Assembly: GCF_000942395.1 (NCBI RefSeq)
Contig: NZ_LN812102.1
Span: 155,358 to 219,357 of the forward strand
Reading direction: 5' to 3'
Length of the DNA: 64,000 nucleotides
From: Risungbinella massiliensis
Lineage (GTDB): Bacteria; Bacillota; Bacilli; Thermoactinomycetales; Thermoactinomycetaceae
The position numbers were made by a program, and so were the translations under genes. Shown here in pieces: positions 934 through 18,030 of the stretch (position 1 is the stretch's first letter; every line of letters starts with the position of its first letter). The notes below the pieces were generated by a model, which saw only the letters and a program-made list of their open reading frames with translations, ran no database searches and was not told the DNA's origin.

Positions 934-3462
934 ATGAGAACTCTCATACGTGTGGGACTTTCTACTACGCTGATCGTATTACTAGTTGTTAGCTTAGTTG
1001 TGATAAATTTTGCACCAACAGCTAATGCCGCTTCGAAAGACGCAGAGCTTTGGAAAGCAATACAACCACTAGGTACAGTCGTAAGTTTTATGAACACTGG
1101 TGCACACCCTGATGATGAACAAAGTGGATTACTAGCTTATCTGTCACTTGGCAAAGGAGTTCGCTCGATCAGTCTGATCGCCAATCGTGGGGAAGGGGGT
1201 CAAAATGAGATTGGAAAGGAGCTCTTCAATGGATTAGGAATGATCCGCTCGCGAGAACTCCAAGAGGCAGCAGAACTTTTGAATCTCCATTTGATTCATC
1301 TAAGCGAAAAACCTGATGATCCTATCTTTGATTTTGGCTTTTCCAAGTCTCCTGTAGAAACATTAAATAATTGGGGAGAATCCCTTACTTACGAGCGATT
1401 GATCCGTCAGATTCGGCAGACACGGCCAGATATTGTGATGCCTAGTTTCTTGGATGTACCTTCTCAACATGGACATCATCGGGCGATCAATCAGTTGACT
1501 GTAAAAGCATTTGAAGATGCAGCAAATCCCAATGTTTTTCCAGAACATATGAAACAAGGACTCGCTCCTTGGCAGATCAAAAAATTATACCTCCCAGGTA
1601 CGAGCACCACTACTACGTTACGTTTTAATATTGGCGGGAAAGTAGATCCGATTTACGAACTTACCTATCCACAACTTGGGGAAGAATCCCGTAAGTTACA
1701 CAAATCTCAAGGGATGGGACGAGATATCCCGGTAGCAGACCAATTTGTCAATTTACAACTATTCAAATCGAAGGTAGGGGCTACAGGGTCAGAACAAACT
1801 ATTTTTGATAACCTACCATATGATCTGACAGCATTTAGTCAACAAGTGACAGATAAAAAAGTAAAGAAACAGTTAAAGCAGCTTCAAGTAGAATATAACA
1901 CTATCATTCAAAGCTATCCAAACTATGAACAAGTAACTATTGGAGTTCAAAAAGCACTTAAATCAACTCGTCAACTATTAAATGATCTGAACAAAAAACC
2001 ACTTCCTGGTGAGCAACAATCAGATCTCGTCTACCGTTTGCAGGTAAAAGAAGAGCAGTTACTCCATGCGAGTAAAGTTGCTTCTAAGATTGATTCGACA
2101 TTATCAGTAGGGGATGGAGTATGGACACTAGGCGCTTCGAAGCAAGTATCTATCCAACTGACAAATGGTAGTGCAGATAAGATATCGGATTTAAAAATAA
2201 CACCTGTGCTGGAAAAAGGATGGTCTGCTTCCATCACAAATGTACCAAAACAATTGAAAGAAGGGGAGAAAACCACCCTATCAGTCGATGTAAAGGCCCC
2301 GACTGCTGACAATAGTTTCTTCCAACCATATGAGGTGACTCCTGTTCAGTTTGATGTAAGTTACAAGCTGTATAACGAGACCGTTACCCAGCGAGTAAAG
2401 GTAGATCCAGTATTACAGACACCTGCCAATTTGCCGGACTGGGGTCTTCTGTTGACACCAGAATCAGGTGTTGTTAATACCGAAAAAGAACAGGATACGA
2501 AGAAGGTAACAGTACAAGTAACTAACTTTGTTCAAGGACCAAGTAAAGGAACCCTAGAACTTCAGCTACCAGCAGGATGGAAGGCAGTGTCTAGTTCTCC
2601 AGAGGTATCGTTCCAAAAGTTCCAAGAGACAAAAGATATTACTTTTACCATCACAACTCCGAAAGTTACGGAACAAAAATACTCCATTCCTGTAGTAGCT
2701 AAGGTAAACGGGAAGTCCTTCTCTACACAAGTACAGACGATCTCGTATCCTCATATTGGAAAAGTCTACTATGTACGAGATGCAACCCTCATTTTCCAAG
2801 GTGTTTCACTAAAATATGATGCGACTCGTAAAATTGGTTATGTAGAGAGTGGCTTTGATGATCTTGCTAATGCATTACGTGAAGCAGGACTAAACATCAC
2901 ATCATTAACCGAAAATGACTTAAAAACAGGAGATTTATCACAGTATGACACAATTGTAGTAGGGATTCGCGCCTATCTGTCACGTAACGATCTCCTTGAG
3001 AACAATCAAAAGATCCTAGACTATGTGAAAAATGGTGGGCATGTGGTGATGCAATATCACAAGCCAGGAGACAATTGGAAACCAGAACTGGCACCTTACC
3101 CAATCCAACCTGGTGACCCAGCAATTAATTGGCGGGTAACAGATGAGAAAGCAGCAGTTACATTTCTAGATCTTCAACACCCGATTATTCAAGGACCTAA
3201 CTTGATCACATCTAAAGACTTCGATAACTGGGTTCAAGAACGAGCTGTTTATTTTCCGTCGTCTTATGACCCTGCATACCAAAAGCTCTTTTCTATGGCA
3301 GATCCCAACGAGCAACCTTTTGATACAGGTGTCTTAGTAGCCAATTATGGCAAAGGTACTTATATCTATACCAGTCTAGTGCTCTATCGTGAAATTCAAT
3401 CACAAGTTTCTGGTGGATATCGCCTCATGGTTAACTTGATCGAGTATCCAAATCAACCTTAA
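934..3462 (+). CDS. Secreted PIG-L/LmbE-family deacetylase with NEW3-like domains
   Basis: Protein of 842 residues. A hydrophobic signal sequence (about 8-30, ending TANA) indicates export. The zinc motif AHPDDE is at about 57-62, with a partner HGHH near 180, defining a PIG-L/LmbE N-acetyl hydrolase domain (about 50-270). The middle contains beta-rich repeats of the NEW3/alpha-galactosidase-associated type (about 395-600). The last 220 residues look like a ThuA/GATase-like fold (DTIVVGIRAYLSRNDLL). The family removes N-acetyl groups from GlcNAc-type sugars; the substrate is unknown, with a surface glycan or glycoconjugate as an inference. ATG follows AGGAGG at 922-927. The gene stands alone and ends at a terminator. 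Confidence 0.8.
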   Translation: MRTLIRVGLSTTLIVLLVVSLVVINFAPTANAASKDAELWKAIQPLGTVVSFMNTGAHPDDEQSGLLAYLSLGKGVRSISLIANRGEGGQNEIGKELFNGLGMIRSRELQEAAELLNLHLIHLSEKPDDPIFDFGFSKSPVETLNNWGESLTYERLIRQIRQTRPDIVMPSFLDVPSQHGHHRAINQLTVKAFEDAANPNVFPEHMKQGLAPWQIKKLYLPGTSTTTTLRFNIGGKVDPIYELTYPQLGEESRKLHKSQGMGRDIPVADQFVNLQLFKSKVGATGSEQTIFDNLPYDLTAFSQQVTDKKVKKQLKQLQVEYNTIIQSYPNYEQVTIGVQKALKSTRQLLNDLNKKPLPGEQQSDLVYRLQVKEEQLLHASKVASKIDSTLSVGDGVWTLGASKQVSIQLTNGSADKISDLKITPVLEKGWSASITNVPKQLKEGEKTTLSVDVKAPTADNSFFQPYEVTPVQFDVSYKLYNETVTQRVKVDPVLQTPANLPDWGLLLTPESGVVNTEKEQDTKKVTVQVTNFVQGPSKGTLELQLPAGWKAVSSSPEVSFQKFQETKDITFTITTPKVTEQKYSIPVVAKVNGKSFSTQVQTISYPHIGKVYYVRDATLIFQGVSLKYDATRKIGYVESGFDDLANALREAGLNITSLTENDLKTGDLSQYDTIVVGIRAYLSRNDLLENNQKILDYVKNGGHVVMQYHKPGDNWKPELAPYPIQPGDPAINWRVTDEKAAVTFLDLQHPIIQGPNLITSKDFDNWVQERAVYFPSSYDPAYQKLFSMADPNEQPFDTGVLVANYGKGTYIYTSLVLYREIQSQVSGGYRLMVNLIEYPNQP

Positions 3463-3463
3463 T

Positions 3464-3506
3464 AAAAAACAGACAAGCGCCAAAGTTGGACGCTTGTCTG
3501 TTTTTT
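3464..3506. terminator. Bidirectional terminator
   Basis: A 13-bp stem (3467-3479 with 3491-3503, AAACAGACAAGCG) has an A-run before it and a T-run after it. It serves the PIG-L gene on + and the small gene on -. Confidence 0.85.
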
Positions 3507-3735
3507 ATCGTTCATTACCCCGTTTGAAATTGCCTGTTACTTTTGCCATTATCAATTGTCTCTCTGATTCATCACTTGCCTGGTCCATTTTGGCAAGAAA
3601 CTTCGTAGCCTCTGTGCCTTTTAAGGTTTTCACTTGTTTCTCATACCAGTAAAGTAAGACAGTTTGATTTTTAGTTACTGTATATCGAAACATCTCACCT
3701 GCTAAACGATTCCGTTTATCTATCGGTCCTGACAT
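3505..3735 (-). CDS. Small conserved-looking protein of unknown function
   Basis: A 76-residue soluble basic protein that starts MSGPIDKRNRLAGEMF. ATG has AAGGAG eight bases upstream. It has no membrane segment, cysteine or recognisable domain. The middle (YTVTKNQTVLLYWYEKQVKTL) alternates hydrophobic and polar residues, suggesting beta strands, and the C-terminus is helical and charged. I think similar short proteins occur in Bacillus genomes but cannot name a family. It is followed on its own strand by the shared hairpin at 3464-3506. Confidence 0.65.
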   Translation of the reverse strand: MSGPIDKRNRLAGEMFRYTVTKNQTVLLYWYEKQVKTLKGTEATKFLAKMDQASDESERQLIMAKVTGNFKRGNER

Positions 3736-11995: not shown

Positions 11996-12406
11996 ATGTG
12001 GAGTGAATTTAAACAATTTGCCTTAAAAGGAAACGTTGTAGATTTAGCCGTTGGGGTCATCATAGGTGCAGCATTCGGAAAAATCGTAACATCATTGGTG
12101 AATGATATGATCATGCCGTTACTTGGCTTGCTTGTAGGCGGGATTAATTTTACTGATTTACATATAACAGTTGGTAGTGCTGTAGTAAAATACGGGAATT
12201 TTGTACAGTCCGTTTTGGATTTCGTAATTGTTGCTTTTTCTATCTTTGTATTCATTAAGCTGTTCAGTAAGCTTAAGAGAAGAGAGGAGCAAGAAGAGGA
12301 ACAGGAGGCACTAAAACCTAGTAGAGAAGAAGAATTACTTAGCGAAATCCGTGATTTATTAAAAAATCGTGCTATTAAAGAAGATAACGATAAATCATTA
12401 TTCTAG
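11996..12406 (+). CDS. mscL: Large-conductance mechanosensitive channel
   Basis: A 136-residue MscL. The N-terminal helix and first membrane helix ([20 protein letters not shown], then [13 protein letters not shown]) form the gate, the loop has GGINFTD, and the second helix is [20 protein letters not shown]. The C-terminus is a charged helical bundle. It opens under membrane tension to release solutes during hypo-osmotic shock. Ribosome site AGAAGAGAATAAC; no operon partner. Confidence 0.95.
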
Positions 12407-12525
12407 CTTTGTCAGGATCTTATGGGTAATGGTTATTTTTAATATTTTTTTGAAATTTAATATTCAGATATGTATGAAGTTATGTTAAAATGATTATACC
12501 CTGACAATCCTACTTAAGGAGAGAT

Positions 12526-12759
12526 ATGCGTATCAACAACGCGCAGGCTCAGGAGTTGCTCGAGGCACTGAAGAAGAAGGAGCGCAAGCTGACTTCGTCC
12601 AGCACCAAGTCGCTGATGCGGCGTGGTGACAACAACTCGTTGCTTCCCGAGGTCCGTGAGGCCAAGGAAGAGCTCGAGCGTTGCATCGGCAACACCAGTC
12701 AGGGGGATGTCCAGATCAGCAACTCGCAGTTCCGGACGATCCGCCGCCTGCTCGGCTAA
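12526..12759 (+). CDS. GC-rich minigene of unknown function, probably foreign
   Basis: A 77-residue hydrophilic helical protein beginning MRINNAQAQELLEALKKKER and ending QFRTIRRLLG, with a single cysteine. By my count the coding sequence is about 59% GC, and 65 of 77 sense codons end in G or C; every Lys is AAG and every Asn AAC, unlike all neighbours. Ribosome site AAGGAGAGAT precedes ATG. A U-tract-free hairpin typical of actinobacterial terminators follows. The AT-rich promoter region upstream looks native. I recognise no domain. Transfer from a high-GC actinobacterium is the simplest explanation. Confidence 0.7.
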   Translation: MRINNAQAQELLEALKKKERKLTSSSTKSLMRRGDNNSLLPEVREAKEELERCIGNTSQGDVQISNSQFRTIRRLLG

Positions 12760-12776
12760 CCACTGAGTAGGTAGCA

Positions 12777-12808
12777 GGTTGGACACGTAGAAATCTACGT
12801 GTCCAACC
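12777..12808 (+). terminator. GC-rich hairpin without U-tract
   Basis: GGTTGGACACGTAG (12777-12790) pairs perfectly with 12795-12808 around AAAT and is followed by CCCC rather than T. This form is common at the ends of actinobacterial genes. Confidence 0.65.
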
Positions 12809-12835
12809 CCCCGCAATCATATCTTTCTTTCTATT

Positions 12836-12889
12836 AAGCCGTTTACATTCCCTGCTTATTAATTTGGGAATGTAAACGGCTTGTTTTTA
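12836..12889 (+). terminator. Intrinsic terminator
   Basis: A 17-bp perfect stem (12836-12852 with 12866-12882) is followed by TTTTT. It is a conventional low-GC terminator just after the GC-rich hairpin. Confidence 0.85.
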
Positions 12890-13072
12890 TCCTTTTGGAT
12901 GAATGCAACTTCAGCTCATTGTGCCGCTCAGTTTATTAACTAGCATCTACATTGATAGTTTATTGAGCAACGAGCTTAATCATCTATCTGTAGAATATAT
13001 TATATAAAATGCATACTAGTTTGCATTACAGATAGAAATAATATACTGACTAAATAGCAGACTATCCACCAT

Positions 13073-13111
13073 AAAAAAAGAGGCTCTATGATTAGAGTCT
13101 CTTTTTTTATG
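13073..13111 (-). terminator. Terminator of the purine permease gene
   Basis: AAAAAAAGAGGCTCTA and TAGAGTCTCTTTTTTT form a stem with one mismatch. It lies directly after the stop codon of the permease on the minus strand. Confidence 0.8.
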
Positions 13112-13121
13112 CAATATCAAA

Positions 13122-14435
13122 TTATGAAGTAGTAGTTTGTTCCGTTGTTATTGTTGTCTCTTGTTGTTTCTTGTTTAGTAAAAGATTGAGGAAAAACGCA
13201 GTAAAACTCCCTAAGACAATTCCATTTTCAACAATAACTTTTAGAGATTCTGGTACTTCCGTAAAGACAGCAGGAACTACTGCAGAACCAAGTCCGATTC
13301 CGACGGAACAAGCAACAATCAATAGGTTTTCGTTCCGTTTAAAATCTACAGTAGAGAGAAGGCGAATTCCAGAAGCAACTACCATCCCAAACATCGGGAT
13401 CATCGCTCCACCCAATACAGCATTTGGAATGATCGTCGTAATCGCTGCTACTTTTGGTAACAGCCCAAGGATCATTAGGATCACACCAGCTGCTATCACG
13501 ACACTCCGTTTCTTTACTTTGGTCATGGCGACTAGTCCAACATTTTGGGAGAAAGTCGTGTATGGGAAAGCGTTAAATAATCCCCCGATTACCACTGCCA
13601 ATCCTTCTGCACGTAGTCCGCGCTTGATATCAGTTGGTGCTAGTTTCTTCTCGCACACTTCGGACAGGGCAAGGAAAACCCCTGTTGATTCTACCATGCT
13701 AACAATCGCTACCAAACTCATTGTAATAATGGAAGAGAGATGGAACTCAGGTGCACCAAAATAGAATGGGCGTACCATGGAGAACCAATCTGCTTTTCCA
13801 ACAACAGATAAATCTACGAGCCCCATTAAATACGCAACAAAGGAACCCATTACTAAAGCAATTAAAACAGAGATTGCTTGCAAAAAGCCTTTGGTAAAGC
13901 GCTGTAACAAAATCACGCAGAGAAAGGTGAACAGCGCAAGAAAAAGATTCTCTAGATGACCGAAAGTTGGCGATCCATCTCCACCAGCTACATTGGTCAT
14001 GGCGACAGGAACAAGCGAAACCCCAATAGTGGTTACAACGGAACCAATAACAACAGGTGGGAAGTATTGGAGAATCTTCCCAAAGAATTGGGCTACGATC
14101 ATCACCACGATACCAGAAGCAATAATCGAGCCATAAATTCCTGCAACCCCTTCTACTTTCCCAATGGCGATCATGGGGCCCACTGCGGTAAAGGTACATC
14201 CTAGGATGACAGGTAACTTGATACCGAAGTGTTTTCCTCCCATAACTTGTAGTAGCGAGGCTATCCCACTAGTAAATAGATCAATTGCGATTAGATATGC
14301 TAGTTGTTCTTGGGTCAAACCTACTGCTGCTCCCACGATCAGCGGCACTACAACAGCCCCTGCATACATGGCCAATACATGCTGGAAGCCTAATAAGGAT
14401 GTTCTACCTAATTCTTTCGTCTGGATGCTTTTCAT
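13122..14435 (-). CDS. NCS2 nucleobase permease, xanthine/urate type
   Basis: A 437-residue protein with about 12-14 membrane helices. It opens GFQHVLAMYAGAVVVPLIVG and later has the NCS2 signature QNVGLVAMTKVKKR, the form usual for xanthine and urate carriers (PbuX, PucJ/K), whereas uracil carriers usually have NxGVxxxT. It imports purine bases with protons or sodium. Ribosome site AGGAGGAGAAC precedes ATG. No purine riboswitch core was found upstream. A weak inverted repeat ATATGAT-N4-ATCATAT (14525-14542) lies in the promoter region. Xanthine rather than urate is uncertain. Confidence 0.82.
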   Translation of the reverse strand: MKSIQTKELGRTSLLGFQHVLAMYAGAVVVPLIVGAAVGLTQEQLAYLIAIDLFTSGIASLLQVMGGKHFGIKLPVILGCTFTAVGPMIAIGKVEGVAGIYGSIIASGIVVMIVAQFFGKILQYFPPVVIGSVVTTIGVSLVPVAMTNVAGGDGSPTFGHLENLFLALFTFLCVILLQRFTKGFLQAISVLIALVMGSFVAYLMGLVDLSVVGKADWFSMVRPFYFGAPEFHLSSIITMSLVAIVSMVESTGVFLALSEVCEKKLAPTDIKRGLRAEGLAVVIGGLFNAFPYTTFSQNVGLVAMTKVKKRSVVIAAGVILMILGLLPKVAAITTIIPNAVLGGAMIPMFGMVVASGIRLLSTVDFKRNENLLIVACSVGIGLGSAVVPAVFTEVPESLKVIVENGIVLGSFTAFFLNLLLNKKQQETTITTEQTTTS

Positions 14436-14578
14436 GTTCTCCTCCTACTAGGACCATTGTCCAACGTCTGAAATACGTAAATTAATAATTGCTCATATCG
14501 TAAAATCGAATAAAACGCTAATAATATGATGAATATCATATAACAACGTTCGTAAAAAATCTAGAAAAAAACGGGCGG

Positions 14579-14648
14579 AAAAGTTCAAAAAAGCGACATT
14601 TTCTCTTCTTTTAGTAGATAGTAAATTCAAAAGCTTTTGTGTTATATT
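14579..14648 (+). promoter_or_regulatory. Promoter region of small paralogue 1
   Basis: The 13-mer AAAGTTCAAAAAA, followed by GACATTTT, lies about 59 bp before TTATATT (14642-14648). The same arrangement recurs before paralogue 2. No good -35 box sits at the usual distance, which suggests an activator or another sigma factor. Confidence 0.45.
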
Positions 14649-14660
14649 TGCGAAGGTACA

Positions 14661-14774
14661 ATAAGACGCTCCCTTGTGGAGATAAACAGTTTATCTCCAC
14701 AAGGGAGCGTCTTTGCCAATACCAGTGGTAATTGGAAAAATACCAAGGATGCGTTTTTCCAGAAGGAGAAAATC
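14661..14774 (+). promoter_or_regulatory. Structured leader RNA, copy 1
   Basis: A 25-bp perfect hairpin (14663-14687 with 14689-14713) is followed by a second hairpin: CCAA-UACC (14716-14723), loop AGU, GGUA (14727-14730), bulged A 14731, UUGG (14732-14735). A further CCAA (14743-14746) can compete for UUGG, and GATGC (14748-14752) can compete for the right arm of hairpin 1. It ends TTCCAGAAGGAG at the ribosome site. The same architecture recurs at 15123-15236. Confidence 0.7.
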
Positions 14775-14978
14775 ATGAAAAATTTTAACGAACTTGTGGA
14801 AAGAAGATTAGCAGGAGATAACGTAATTACCACAACTGAATTAAATGAATTGTATGCTGCTAGATTTTCAGGGAAACTTACACGTTCCACGATCCAGGTG
14901 ATGGATCAAGTCAAGTGGAGTAACGCTGAAAAATCCATTATTTCTCAAATCAACGCACACCATGGTTTTCATATGTAG
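14775..14978 (+). CDS. Small protein, paralogue 1, unknown function
   Basis: 67 residues, soluble and helical, beginning MKNFNELVERRLAGDN. ATG 14775 follows AGAAGGAG at the end of the structured leader. The C-terminal half shares a pattern with the next gene: LTxxxI, then a Trp-containing motif (VKWSNAEKSIIS versus IRWESKEIAIIS). I do not recognise the family. The conserved leader suggests strong regulation, but nothing in the protein indicates an activity. Its own hairpin terminator follows at once. Confidence 0.65.
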   Translation: MKNFNELVERRLAGDNVITTTELNELYAARFSGKLTRSTIQVMDQVKWSNAEKSIISQINAHHGFHM

Positions 14979-14990
14979 TTCCAATTACCG

Positions 14991-15024
14991 ATACCCTCCT
15001 GTATTTTTTGGAGGGTGCTTTGTT
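14991..15024 (+). terminator. Terminator after small paralogue 1
   Basis: ACCCTCC (14993-14999) pairs with GGAGGGT (15010-15016). The same stem sequence ends paralogue 2. Confidence 0.6.
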
Positions 15025-15040
15025 ATATTGAAAAAGAGTT

Positions 15041-15111
15041 AAAGTTCAAAAAAAAGACAATTTTTTCGCTGGTTCATAGATAATATATTCTAAAATATCT
15101 GTTATTATATT
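15041..15111 (+). promoter_or_regulatory. Promoter region of small paralogue 2
   Basis: The 13-mer AAAGTTCAAAAAA, then GACAATTTTTT, lies about 61 bp before TTATATT (15105-15111), matching the block upstream of paralogue 1. Confidence 0.45.
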
Positions 15112-15122
15112 AGGGAGGTGGC

Positions 15123-15236
15123 GCTAAGACGCTCCCTCCTGAAGAACCACATTTTGGTCTGTGGGAGGGAGCGTCTTAGCCAACACCGATGGTGATTGGT
15201 AACTACCAAAGACGCTGTTGTCCAGAAAGGGTCAAT
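15123..15236 (+). promoter_or_regulatory. Structured leader RNA, copy 2
   Basis: Hairpin 1 has a 17-bp lower stem (15123-15139 with 15164-15180) sharing AAGACGCTCCC with copy 1 but with a different upper stem. Hairpin 2 is CCAA-CACC, loop GAU, GGUG, bulged A 15195, UUGG, so the U-A pair of copy 1 is C-G here. TTGGT (15196-15200) can instead pair with ACCAA (15205-15209), and AAGACGCT (15209-15216) can compete for AGCGTCTT (15170-15177). It ends GTCCAGAAAGGG at the ribosome site. Confidence 0.7.
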
Positions 15237-15485
15237 ATGTGTCGTTCTCTAGCTACTAAAAAAACTTATTTCACAGCAAAAGACATCGAAAGAAGATTAC
15301 GTAATCGAAAACAGGAACAAAGAATCATCCATTACAAACCAGAATTAGCAGAAATATGCAAGGCGATAGAGGACAATATACTTACAGAAGAGGCAATTGA
15401 AATCTTCCGATCGATCAGATGGGAGAGTAAAGAAATTGCAATCATCAGCATTTATGAAAAAGCTAACGAGATTAGGAAGAGTTAA
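15237..15485 (+). CDS. Small protein, paralogue 2, unknown function
   Basis: 82 residues, very basic in the first half (KDIERRLRNRKQEQR), then a helical C-terminus with NILTEEAIEIFRSIRWESKE that aligns with paralogue 1. ATG 15237 follows AAAGGG. The basic segment could bind nucleic acid, but this is only a composition argument. With its neighbour it forms a tandem pair of leader, gene and terminator units, most simply explained by duplication. Confidence 0.65.
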   Translation: MCRSLATKKTYFTAKDIERRLRNRKQEQRIIHYKPELAEICKAIEDNILTEEAIEIFRSIRWESKEIAIISIYEKANEIRKS

Positions 15486-15495
15486 CCAATCATCC

Positions 15496-15537
15496 GCACC
15501 CTCCCAAATAAAAAGGAGGGTGTTTTCATTTTTTTCT
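15496..15537 (+). terminator. Terminator after small paralogue 2
   Basis: CACCCTCC (15497-15504) pairs with GGAGGGTG (15515-15522) and is followed by a T-rich run. Confidence 0.75.
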
Positions 15538-15657
15538 GAAAGAAAGAGTAATGGAAGCTATGTTGGAAAATATTGATAGTATTCGCTCCTGAATCAGAGT
15601 AAAATGAATATCAGCAATTTGCCTTTTTTTGTATGTATTGGGAAAGGAGCATATTAG

Positions 15658-17145
15658 TTGGAACTAAGTAAAAGCAGTATGAATTATGTAATTGCCGGAC
15701 TAATGCTTGGAATTTTTGTTGCTTCACTAGACAATACAATTGTCGCTACAGCAATGCCGACTATTGTGGGGGAACTAGGACAATTTGATCAATTTGTCTG
15801 GGTCACCTCTGCCTATATGATCGCTACCGTAGCAGGGATGCCGATCTTTGGCAAGCTTTCGGATATGTATGGGCGTAAGATGTTTTTTTTATTTGGTCTC
15901 ACTCTTTTTATTGTTGCTTCGATGCTCTGTGGTATTGCTAATTCCATGACTCAGTTAGCATTTTACCGTGCCTTGCAAGGATTGGGAGGCGGAGCATTAA
16001 TGCCTATTGCCTTTACGATTATTTTTGATGCTCTTCCAGCAGATAAACGCGGTAAAATAACGGGGCTTTTTGGTGCAGTATTTGGTTTGTCTAGTATTAT
16101 AGGACCACTATTAGGTGCTTTTTTAACAGATGCAATAGGATGGCGTTGGATTTTTTATATCAATGCTCCTATTGGTGCAATTTCAATCTTTTTTATTTAT
16201 AAGTTTTATCATGAATCCGGCCAGCGCAACAAACAAAAAATTGACTGGGGCGGAGCAATTACCTTAGTCCTAGGACTTGTTAGTTTTATGTTCGCTGTGG
16301 AGTTTGGTGGGAAAGATTATGCATGGGACTCGGTGCAAATTTTAGGACTCTTTGGTTTGTCGTTGATATCGTTCATTATATTTGGTTTTATTGAGCGAAA
16401 AGCATCGGAACCAATCATTACCTTCTCCTTGTTTAAAAGACGTCTCTTTGCCTCTGCGCAATTAGTCGCTTTCTTCTATGGTTTGGTCTTCATATCAGCA
16501 AGCGTTTATATCCCTATTTTTATACAAGGAGTGTACGGGGGATCTGCAACCAACTCAGGGCTGATTCTGATGCCGATGATGCTGGGTTCCGTTGTGACTG
16601 CTCAGATTGGTGGGCGGGCACCCATGAAGTTTGGTTTTCGTAATGTCATGATTGTCTCAGGAATCCTACTCATATTAGGACTTTACCTACTTAGTACGAT
16701 GGATACCGAAACCCCACGATGGATGGTTACGCTTTTTATGGTGGTATTAGGACTTGGAGTGGGTTTCTCTTTTTCCTTACTGAACCTTGCTTCTATTCAA
16801 GGCGTTCCATCTTATCAACGTGGATCTGCGACTTCGGTAGGTTCTACTTTTCGTACGATCGGGATGGCTCTCGGTGTGACCATCTTTGGATCGATTCAGC
16901 AGCGACTATTTACAGATCAGTTATCTTCTTCTCTTCCTGGCGATACTCCTGTTGCCAATTTCTCTGCCAATGCGCTAAGTGGAGAAGCATCGAAAAATAT
17001 CCCTGGACCGATCCTAGAAGCAATTCAAAATGCACTGTCTAACTCGATTTCGACTGCTTTCCTATGGTCTGTGATCCCAGCAATATTTGCCTTGATCGTT
17101 ATTTTTATGATGGGGAAGGAACGAATGAGTGATAGCAGAGGGTAA
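15658..17145 (+). CDS. DHA2-family (EmrB/QacA) MFS multidrug exporter
   Basis: A 495-residue transporter with 14 predicted membrane helices. LDNTIVATAMPTIVGEL in helix 1 is the DHA2 signature, GKLSDMYGRKMFF is motif A, and RALQGLGGGALMPIAFTIIFD is motif B/C. It exports drugs or toxic metabolites in exchange for protons; the substrate is unknown. The start is TTG 15658, eight bases after GGAAAGGAG. The gene is monocistronic and ends at a hairpin. Confidence 0.88.
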   Translation: MELSKSSMNYVIAGLMLGIFVASLDNTIVATAMPTIVGELGQFDQFVWVTSAYMIATVAGMPIFGKLSDMYGRKMFFLFGLTLFIVASMLCGIANSMTQLAFYRALQGLGGGALMPIAFTIIFDALPADKRGKITGLFGAVFGLSSIIGPLLGAFLTDAIGWRWIFYINAPIGAISIFFIYKFYHESGQRNKQKIDWGGAITLVLGLVSFMFAVEFGGKDYAWDSVQILGLFGLSLISFIIFGFIERKASEPIITFSLFKRRLFASAQLVAFFYGLVFISASVYIPIFIQGVYGGSATNSGLILMPMMLGSVVTAQIGGRAPMKFGFRNVMIVSGILLILGLYLLSTMDTETPRWMVTLFMVVLGLGVGFSFSLLNLASIQGVPSYQRGSATSVGSTFRTIGMALGVTIFGSIQQRLFTDQLSSSLPGDTPVANFSANALSGEASKNIPGPILEAIQNALSNSISTAFLWSVIPAIFALIVIFMMGKERMSDSRG

Positions 17146-17153
17146 TTCATTAA

Positions 17154-17184
17154 GAAAAGCATCTCCATATGAGGTGCTTTTTTA
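17154..17184 (+). terminator. Intrinsic terminator
   Basis: AAAAGCATCTC pairs with GAGGTGCTTTT around CATAT, followed by T residues, between the exporter and the phosphoesterase gene. Confidence 0.75.
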
Positions 17185-17208
17185 TTTGATAGTGAATAGG
17201 GGGATAAC

Positions 17209-17973
17209 ATGAAACGTTTCGCAGTAGTGACAGATTTACATGGAAATGACTATGCTCTACAAGCAGTATTAGAAGAACTAGAGAATGAAGAGATTCGAGA
17301 GGTTTACTGTCTGGGGGATATTTTATCCATAGGACATCAATCAAAAGAAGTATTGCAGAGGTTACAGGAATACCCCAATCTTCATCTTGTATTAGGTAAT
17401 CATGATGAATACATCTTGGCAATTCACCGTGGAGAGGCAGTCCCAGAGGACACAGCAGAGAATAAAGCACATCACGAATGGGTTTACCGACAAATAGACG
17501 ATAGATTGCTAGATTGGTTAGCAAACAAGCAACGGTCTCTTGTGCTTGAGGAGAATGGTCACTCTATTCGACTACTACACTATCATATTCCACTGGAGCA
17601 TAATGGTTTACATATTTCTCAAAGTCCCTATGCACCCATTCATTCCTATCCGACTCCTGTCTCGTATCTACAAGAACTATTTGCGCCTTATCAAGAAAAT
17701 CTCGTACTGTTTGGTCATACACACGTTACTGCTTATTGGCAGACTGATCAACAACAAGTACGATTTAATCCAGGTGCTCTGGGAGTTTCTCATGATAGAT
17801 TCGCACGATATGGGGTGATTGAGTTAGAAAAGGGTCAAATTCGTTGTCACCTGAAAAAAGTTCCTTATGATCGGGAAAGATATATTCAAGAACTCCAGAA
17901 TGCAAAAATGCCTGCTAGTATAGAAATTTTTCCTATGTTTTTTGGTGTGAAATATGAAACGAAGAATATCTGA
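17209..17973 (+). CDS. Calcineurin-like metallophosphoesterase
   Basis: 254 residues. The dimetal motifs are all visible in order: TDLHGN (9-14), GDIL (about 37-40), GNHDEY (about 63-68) and FGHTH (about 168-172). Proteins of this class with this length act on phosphodiesters or diadenosine-type nucleotides; specificity cannot be read from the sequence. Ribosome site AGGGGGATAAC. It has no operon partner. Confidence 0.85.
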   Translation: MKRFAVVTDLHGNDYALQAVLEELENEEIREVYCLGDILSIGHQSKEVLQRLQEYPNLHLVLGNHDEYILAIHRGEAVPEDTAENKAHHEWVYRQIDDRLLDWLANKQRSLVLEENGHSIRLLHYHIPLEHNGLHISQSPYAPIHSYPTPVSYLQELFAPYQENLVLFGHTHVTAYWQTDQQQVRFNPGALGVSHDRFARYGVIELEKGQIRCHLKKVPYDRERYIQELQNAKMPASIEIFPMFFGVKYETKNI

Positions 17974-18030
17974 TTTCCATATAGATAAATATAAATACTC
18001 ATACTCTTTGATGATCTATTCAACAAGCAC

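Follow-up and report, generated by a model that had tools for sequence, protein, structure and literature searches.

Two tandem small-gene units in Risungbinella massiliensis with structured leaders and predicted end-to-end pairing of their messages

Two neighbouring units in the 64,000-nt stretch of Risungbinella massiliensis DNA analysed here (contig NZ_LN812102.1; hereafter the window) each combine a structured RNA and a conserved control region with one of two related small proteins, and these three features are supported by our analysis. The paired control region is real and structured, and its 3' end is more interesting than had been recognised by an earlier reading of the letters alone (the sequence-only reading). 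Our preferred interpretation, to which we assign a probability of roughly one in three, is that each unit would give rise to a self-closing, end-protected one-gene mRNA, an interpretation drawn from two paralogous copies in one genome. It brings together what was computed, namely the elements themselves, their complementarity in both units, the excess of the resulting pairing over that in folds of shuffled sequences, a linked base change and two leader states of near-equal energy.

In the proposed scheme, for which we infer both the order of folding and the start of transcription, a long hairpin (hairpin 1) would block the 5' end, and a second one (hairpin 2) would form during transcription as a local, temporary structure. 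A box behind the stop codon, once made and free of ribosomes, would then capture the 3' arm of hairpin 2, and the freed 5' arm (YACC) could seal the 5' end (GGUR) of the message. As the box helix adjoins the terminator, both ends of the message would be held in one structure. The likely effect would be on message lifetime, either by protection from end-dependent decay, which a strong stem and a seal at the 5' end, together with closure of the 3' end, would slow, or by presenting a duplex target for RNase III; message lifetime would in turn set the amount of the small protein.

The units lie head to tail (14,580–15,018 and 15,041–15,521) between a minus-strand permease gene (Xan_ur_permease, PF00860) and an MFS transporter gene (PF07690), the two Pfam-named neighbours both being transporters. 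In each unit a 13-mer is followed by a conserved stretch, a TATATT box, hairpin 1 and hairpin 2, and then by a CCAA-R-GAYGC segment, a ribosome site, an ORF and a terminator-like hairpin (alignment of 511 columns; Table 1). The elements named in the sequence-only reading were all found in both units where it had placed them; it had overlooked the post-stop box and the GGUR at the 5' end.

Table 1 Features of the two units; positions count from the first letter of the window
Feature	Unit	Position	Strand	Remark
13-mer AAAGTTCAAAAAA	1	14580..14592	+	start of the conserved upstream region
13-mer AAAGTTCAAAAAA	2	15041..15053	+	
Likely -10 box TATATT	1	14643..14648	+	follows TG (extended -10); by eye
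Likely -10 box TATATT	2	15106..15111	+	by eye
GGUA, putative 5' end	1	14655..14658	+	can pair with 14720-14723
GGUG, putative 5' end	2	15117..15120	+	can pair with 15184-15187
Hairpin 1	1	14663..14713	+	perfect 25-bp inverted repeat, 1-nt centre
Hairpin 1	2	15123..15180	+	perfect 17-bp base, imperfect top
Hairpin 2	1	14716..14735	+	CCAAUACC/GGUAAUUGG, bulged A
Hairpin 2	2	15180..15199	+	CCAACACC/GGUGAUUGG, bulged A
Downstream segment ACCAA-G-GATGC	1	14742..14752	+	
Downstream segment ACCAA-A-GACGC	2	15205..15215	+	
Ribosome site AAGGAG	1	14763..14768	+	
Ribosome site AAAGGG	2	15226..15231	+	
ORF, 67 aa	1	14775..14978	+	four predicted helices, mean pLDDT 73
ORF, 82 aa	2	15237..15485	+	related to the 67-aa ORF
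Box UUCCAAUUACC adjoining the stop codon	1	14979..14989	+	exact complement of 14727-14737
Box CCAAUCAUC adjoining the stop codon	2	15486..15494	+	pairs with 15191-15199, one G-U
Terminator-like hairpin ACCCTCC/GGAGGGT	1	14993..15018	+	
Terminator-like hairpin	2	15496..15521	+	

Between the units, identity reaches 52/71 positions in the upstream stretch and 84/120 in the leader, compared to 88/204 in the coding part and 25/40 in the post-stop stretch with the terminator. The entire control region is thus better conserved than the coding part, which holds for its promoter side no less than for its RNA side, and since the upstream DNA is kept as well as the leader, leader identity alone is no proof of selection on the RNA. 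The 13-mer that opens this region has two exact copies genome-wide, both of them here, while its letter-reversed control has three; taken alone, it is near chance frequency. Neither likely -10 box was listed by a consensus promoter scan, and a terminator scan listed neither terminator-like hairpin. Each of the latter two closely resembles the reverse complement of the other, including in the loop (85%), and one may be an inverted copy of its counterpart. What we take to be a possible PurR-type box (CGAAC motif; 14,535–14,560, minus strand) lies before the permease gene. Elsewhere in the window, a 77-aa ORF (12,526–12,759; 59.4% G+C compared to 39.2% for the window) is followed by two strong hairpins; searches of Pfam, NCBIfam and PADLOC at E 1 gave no match to it, and it may come from a high-G+C donor.

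The post-stop box (CCAAUYAYC) of each unit is complementary to the 3' arm of its hairpin 2 (GGURAUUGG), and in folds of the full-length messages this pairing outcompeted hairpin 2. Its predicted probability, averaged over nine pairs, was 1.00 for unit 1 and 0.92 for unit 2. When the leader was kept fixed and everything after the start codon was shuffled, mean pairing with the box region fell to 0.014 and 0.032, compared to 0.999 and 0.992 for the actual sequences, values reached by none of 200 shuffles in either unit. Blocking the box was predicted to cost 9.8 kcal/mol in unit 1 and 8.8 kcal/mol in unit 2. Counting complementary bases only, the longest stretch shared by leader and box in unit 1 is 11 nt (0/1000 shuffles; 26/1000 with G-U pairs allowed), and that in unit 2 is 8 nt with Watson-Crick pairs (20/1000) or 10 nt with G-U pairs (112/1000). 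As a control, 121 nt of leader and 16 nt of post-stop sequence were compared for the 52 other mechanically defined ORFs of at least 100 aa in the window, for which the longest complement was 4 nt in 6 cases, 5 nt in 28, 6 nt in 11, 7 nt in 6 and 8 nt in 1. By the same strict measure, unit 1 scored 11 and unit 2 scored 7, the latter equalled or exceeded by 7 of the 52 controls, so that unit 2 by itself proves nothing on strict complementarity. Together, the folds suggest that the strongest alternative pairing runs from the 5' to the 3' part of the whole mRNA rather than only inside the leader, a pattern that would match the hok and aapA mRNAs, where end-to-end pairing takes over from a temporary hairpin.

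The 5'-terminal GGUR is in turn complementary to the YACC of hairpin 2 in both units. With hairpin 1 in place, the state with hairpin 2 was predicted to be 2.5 kcal/mol better than the state with a sealed 5' end in unit 1 and 1.9 kcal/mol worse in unit 2; the two leader states are thus near-equal in predicted energy. The predicted probability of sealing was 0.60 with the box present and 0.01 with the box blocked in unit 1, compared to 1.00 and 0.99 in unit 2, suggesting that sealing would depend on the box in the former but not in the latter.

These alternative helices share one position at which the units differ. The change from U-A in unit 1 to C-G in unit 2 within hairpin 2 sits where the sequence-only reading had placed it, and is accompanied by changes in step from A to G in GGUR and from U to C in the post-stop box. 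A single position is thus linked over four strands, which read U/A/A/U in unit 1 and C/G/G/C in unit 2. Owing to this, the three alternative helices each stay intact. The terminator arm also contains a YACC that varies in parallel, which means that the linked change is not confined to the helices proposed here. As a single position in two sequences, the linked change appears suggestive but is no proof.

A long-distance end helix that replaces a temporary hairpin and carries a linked change would equally fit a translational lock of the hok or aapA kind, in which closure silences the full-length message until its 3' end is trimmed or the box removed, whereupon it opens. The predictions for the ribosome site speak against this. 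In unit 1, its predicted openness was 0.43–0.44 in six of seven forms of the message and 0.34 in the shortest nascent form; in unit 2, it was 0.62 in all seven. That of the start codon was 0.36–0.39 in unit 2 and, in unit 1, 0.90–0.94 except for 0.47 in the shortest form. In thermodynamic terms, holding the box of the full form unpaired altered the predicted openness of neither site, so that closure had no predicted effect on the ribosome site in either unit, and a translational switch is not supported by these predictions. The arm of hairpin 2 ends 27 nt before the ribosome site in unit 1 (14,735 to 14,763) and 26 nt before it in unit 2 (15,199 to 15,226). By reading, the 5' arm of the terminator carries a CUCC that could, upon opening of this terminator, pair with the GGAG of unit 1. 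Further counterarguments are that a consensus scan of 14,400–15,700 returned no minus-strand promoter, although it also missed the likely plus-strand promoters, and that, by reading, both proteins are neither hydrophobic nor membrane-like. We therefore regard a translational lock as possible but doubtful. Since closure leaves the predicted openness of the ribosome site unchanged, we place the likeliest effect of the self-closing mRNA on message lifetime.

The sequence-only reading had proposed a regulatory leader. In one form of this proposal, a factor common to both units, be it a metabolite, a protein or a small RNA, would bind the leader and control translation. The identity between the two leaders, together with the conservation of hairpin 2 and of the downstream segments, is in line with such a factor, and as conservation of the control region contrasts with divergence of the proteins, one common factor would fit better than self-control by each protein. 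The sequence-only reading was also right in matching the RNA to no class: Rfam gave 0 matches at gathering score in the window, and the 24 matches at E up to 5 in 14,560–15,560 were all below the cut-off of their family, the best by score being to a microRNA family (28.5 bits, cut-off 83). For a leader that controls translation, however, the predicted openness of the ribosome site should switch, and it does not; nor did the searches recover a match at the curated Rfam cut-off or a relative in the other genomes covered. What stands of the regulatory leader is thus a structured RNA outside any Rfam class, whereas displacement by GAYGC (see below) and a predicted change at the ribosome site upon closure do not. 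We consider a shared factor unlikely.

The search for relatives relied largely on a two-sequence covariance model, R1, which in the own genome recovered both units along with their reverse strands, the next match scoring 16.4 bits. Its best E value in the other 22 genomes of the family was 0.13, and it gave no match at E 0.01 in the other 41 genomes of the order or at E 0.001 in the other 397 of the class; these sets (23, 42 and 398 genomes) overlap, the larger searches used stricter filters, and the class search scored at most nine candidates per genome among the genomes listed. The family set of 23 contains no second genome of the genus, so absence elsewhere may reflect the species sampled. 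The exact pattern of hairpin 2 plus ACCAA had 0 matches in genome contigs. A 16-base segment of hairpin 1 together with CCAA occurred in at least 119 stretches and in 14 viral ones, and among the 133 matches listed, none had a 5' arm matching at least 9 of 11 positions within 90 bases upstream. Six viral matches to hairpin 2 alone (17.6–24.8 bits) had been selected by that very motif and were taken as chance, and a DNA search of phages and plasmids returned only short matches at E 0.08 or more. Further homologues, whose absence the sequence-only reading had named as a refuting result, have so far been found neither with R1 nor with exact patterns or proteins. We also discarded the end of a mobile element, as a repeat search of 12,400–18,000 revealed no terminal inverted repeats framing the units.

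Neither ORF was found (tblastn, E 1) in the flanks of 13 permease loci from 10 relatives (L175–L187), each flank spanning 1500 bases except for one of about 1100 in L181 and in L182. The MFS gene had a single match at these loci, of E 0.63, within the permease span of L187. In 12 loci (L183 left out), long hairpins lie by the permease gene in L176, L180, L181 and L182; the 7-mer AAGACGC occurs in L181, and CCAATACC in none of the 12. The L180 permease homologue is listed with one internal TAG stop. L183 carries, on the 3' side of its permease gene (minus strand, 1501–2727), 7.5 tandem copies of a 176-bp unit (51–1375) with inverted repeats at the same spacing, and, on the 5' side, a purine riboswitch match (3458–3559, minus strand). 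A literature search at the level of the family found nothing joining Thermoactinomycetaceae with a riboswitch.

A simpler explanation would be that an orphan gene was duplicated along with its control region, the RNA serving mainly as a strong stabilising 5' hairpin with little further regulation. The leaders fold at z -9.4 (unit 1) and -8.2 (unit 2), with 0/200 shuffles as low in each case, and the full transcripts fold 7 to 8 standard deviations below shuffles. We take most of the low folding energy of leaders and transcripts to come from hairpin 1. An 11-mer at its base occurs genome-wide only in these units (its reversed control has 3 matches), and the motif of hairpin 2, with up to three mismatches, has two matches in the window compared to 0.03 expected. 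Consistent with a plain duplication, there are only two copies, in one genome, and the upstream DNA is conserved like the leader. Evidence from covariation points the same way, as it is only mildly above permutation: 12 stems of at least 4 pairs carry a double change, compared to a permutation mean of 6.7 (16/400 permutations with as many), and for stems of at least 6 pairs 51/400 permutations match the count, all for two paralogous copies in one genome. Covariation above background, the lack of which would have counted against the sequence-only reading, is only mild. The top of hairpin 1, said there to pair in both copies despite a different sequence, does still pair in unit 2, but the case is weaker than that reading had it, with 62/1000 residue permutations folding equally well. 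A mere duplication would leave unexplained, however, why post-stop pairing occurs at the same place in both units and why the control region is better conserved than the coding part, and we hold this explanation to be improbable.

A further claim of the sequence-only reading was that GAYGC can displace hairpin 1, to whose base it is indeed complementary; the displacement probability was 0.00 in five uncut forms per unit. That hairpin 1 instead acts as a cut site for a double-strand RNase, after which its downstream half refolds and GAYGC pairs with GCGUC, is improbable. The perfect 25-bp stem of unit 1 would suit it, and an in-silico cut near the loop (5' arm removed, short 3' part with leader plus 60 nt) gave the alternative helix at 1.00 in unit 1; against it, the same cut gave only 0.08 in unit 2, and 0.00 resulted in both units with the full 3' part.

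The two small proteins are 28% identical. Their local alignment score of 53 compares to a shuffle mean of 23.5 (0/2000 shuffles as high), and the proposed pair of frames scores highest of 36 combinations, the next reaching 33. Within a block of 36 codons, first, second and third positions are identical in 17, 18 and 10 cases, the third being the least conserved. Judging from these comparisons of sequence, both ORFs are genes, diverged but related. Searches for relatives gave no match to the 67-aa protein in Pfam and one below the cut-off for the 82-aa protein (E 0.026), best E values for the two of 0.12 and 0.089 in PHROGs and of 0.046 and 0.07 in NCBIfam, the latter far below cut-off, no match to either in PADLOC, and a best E of 0.71 in the PDB by sequence. 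Viral contigs contained no relative of either protein, phages none of the 82-aa protein and plasmids none of the 67-aa protein, which in 60 related genomes had matches only at E 0.156 or above. A profile of both proteins found four weak matches (E 0.005–0.028) in the 397 other genomes of the class, two in ORFs of more than 900 aa, one of 197 aa and one in an 80-aa frame with an internal stop.

The structure model of the 82-aa protein was poor (pLDDT 50). For the 67-aa model, the best structural matches were to the helical domain of thymidine phosphorylase and TrpD (Glycos_trans_3N, PF02885), with Z up to 6.9, which for a single-sequence model of pLDDT 73 is within the range of common helical arrangements; the best Foldseek E was 0.99. 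The sequence score against this domain was equalled by 3/500 shuffles for the 67-aa protein and by at least 102/500 for the 82-aa protein, and hhalign against a profile built from 24 of 30 loci gave P values of 0.0066 for the first protein, 0.40 for the second and 0.093 for both. The Pfam model PF02885 matched neither ORF at E 1, nor at E 10 in the genome search. These results give a hint that the 67-aa protein may be related to Glycos_trans_3N, with sequence support that is weak for this protein and lacking for the 82-aa one.

A terminating ribosome would cover the post-stop box, as the latter touches the stop codon, and closure of the self-closing mRNA may thus depend on translation. Going further, the units could represent a new class of self-closing bacterial mRNA in which a temporary 5' hairpin gives up its arm to the post-stop box, and closure reports whether ribosomes are still at work on the message and sets its lifetime, the product being a fast-changing small protein other than a membrane toxin; we think this rather unlikely. 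If true, end-to-end folding of the hok type would not be confined to toxin messages, and a post-stop box would be a simple way for translation to decide when a message closes. The pair offers a natural two-copy test, with one RNA design and different proteins.

Among known systems, Bacillus messages such as aprE (the subject of a title cited in PMC3997798) reportedly carry a 5' stabilising stem-loop. Such stem-loops likewise place a strong stem near the 5' end; unlike them, the stem here has a conserved base sequence and is accompanied by further pairing segments linked to the 3' end. In hok mRNA (hok/Sok type I toxin-antitoxin), for which coupled nucleotide covariations are reportedly the subject of a 1997 paper, a temporary 5' hairpin likewise forms and later pairing silences the full-length message. 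Unlike in hok, no antisense promoter was found here, the proteins are not membrane-like by reading, and the partner of the box is hairpin 2, with no masking of the ribosome site predicted; the temporary hairpin of hok, too, does not itself mask the ribosome site (PMC6733600). Long-distance pairing between the 5' and 3' parts of the full-length mRNA, a feature of type I toxin-antitoxin systems, was predicted for both units. In aapA/IsoA of Helicobacter, a 5'-3' long-distance helix likewise follows successive local hairpins, and in aapA3 a local temporary hairpin gives way to such an end-to-end helix; there the 3' element is an anti-Shine-Dalgarno sequence, (PMC6733600), whereas here the 3' box pairs with an arm of hairpin 2. 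The icaR message of Staphylococcus aureus has a long 3'-UTR with a motif whose pairing with the ribosome site gives an RNase III target, and end-to-end pairing is also discussed for it (PMC3868564). Unlike in icaR, the box here adjoins the stop codon and has hairpin 2 as its predicted partner, and pairing of the 3'-UTR with the Shine-Dalgarno sequence was not predicted. We therefore assign the units neither to icaR-type control nor to the type I toxins; the predictions suggest that they would work, in outline, like known self-folding messages.
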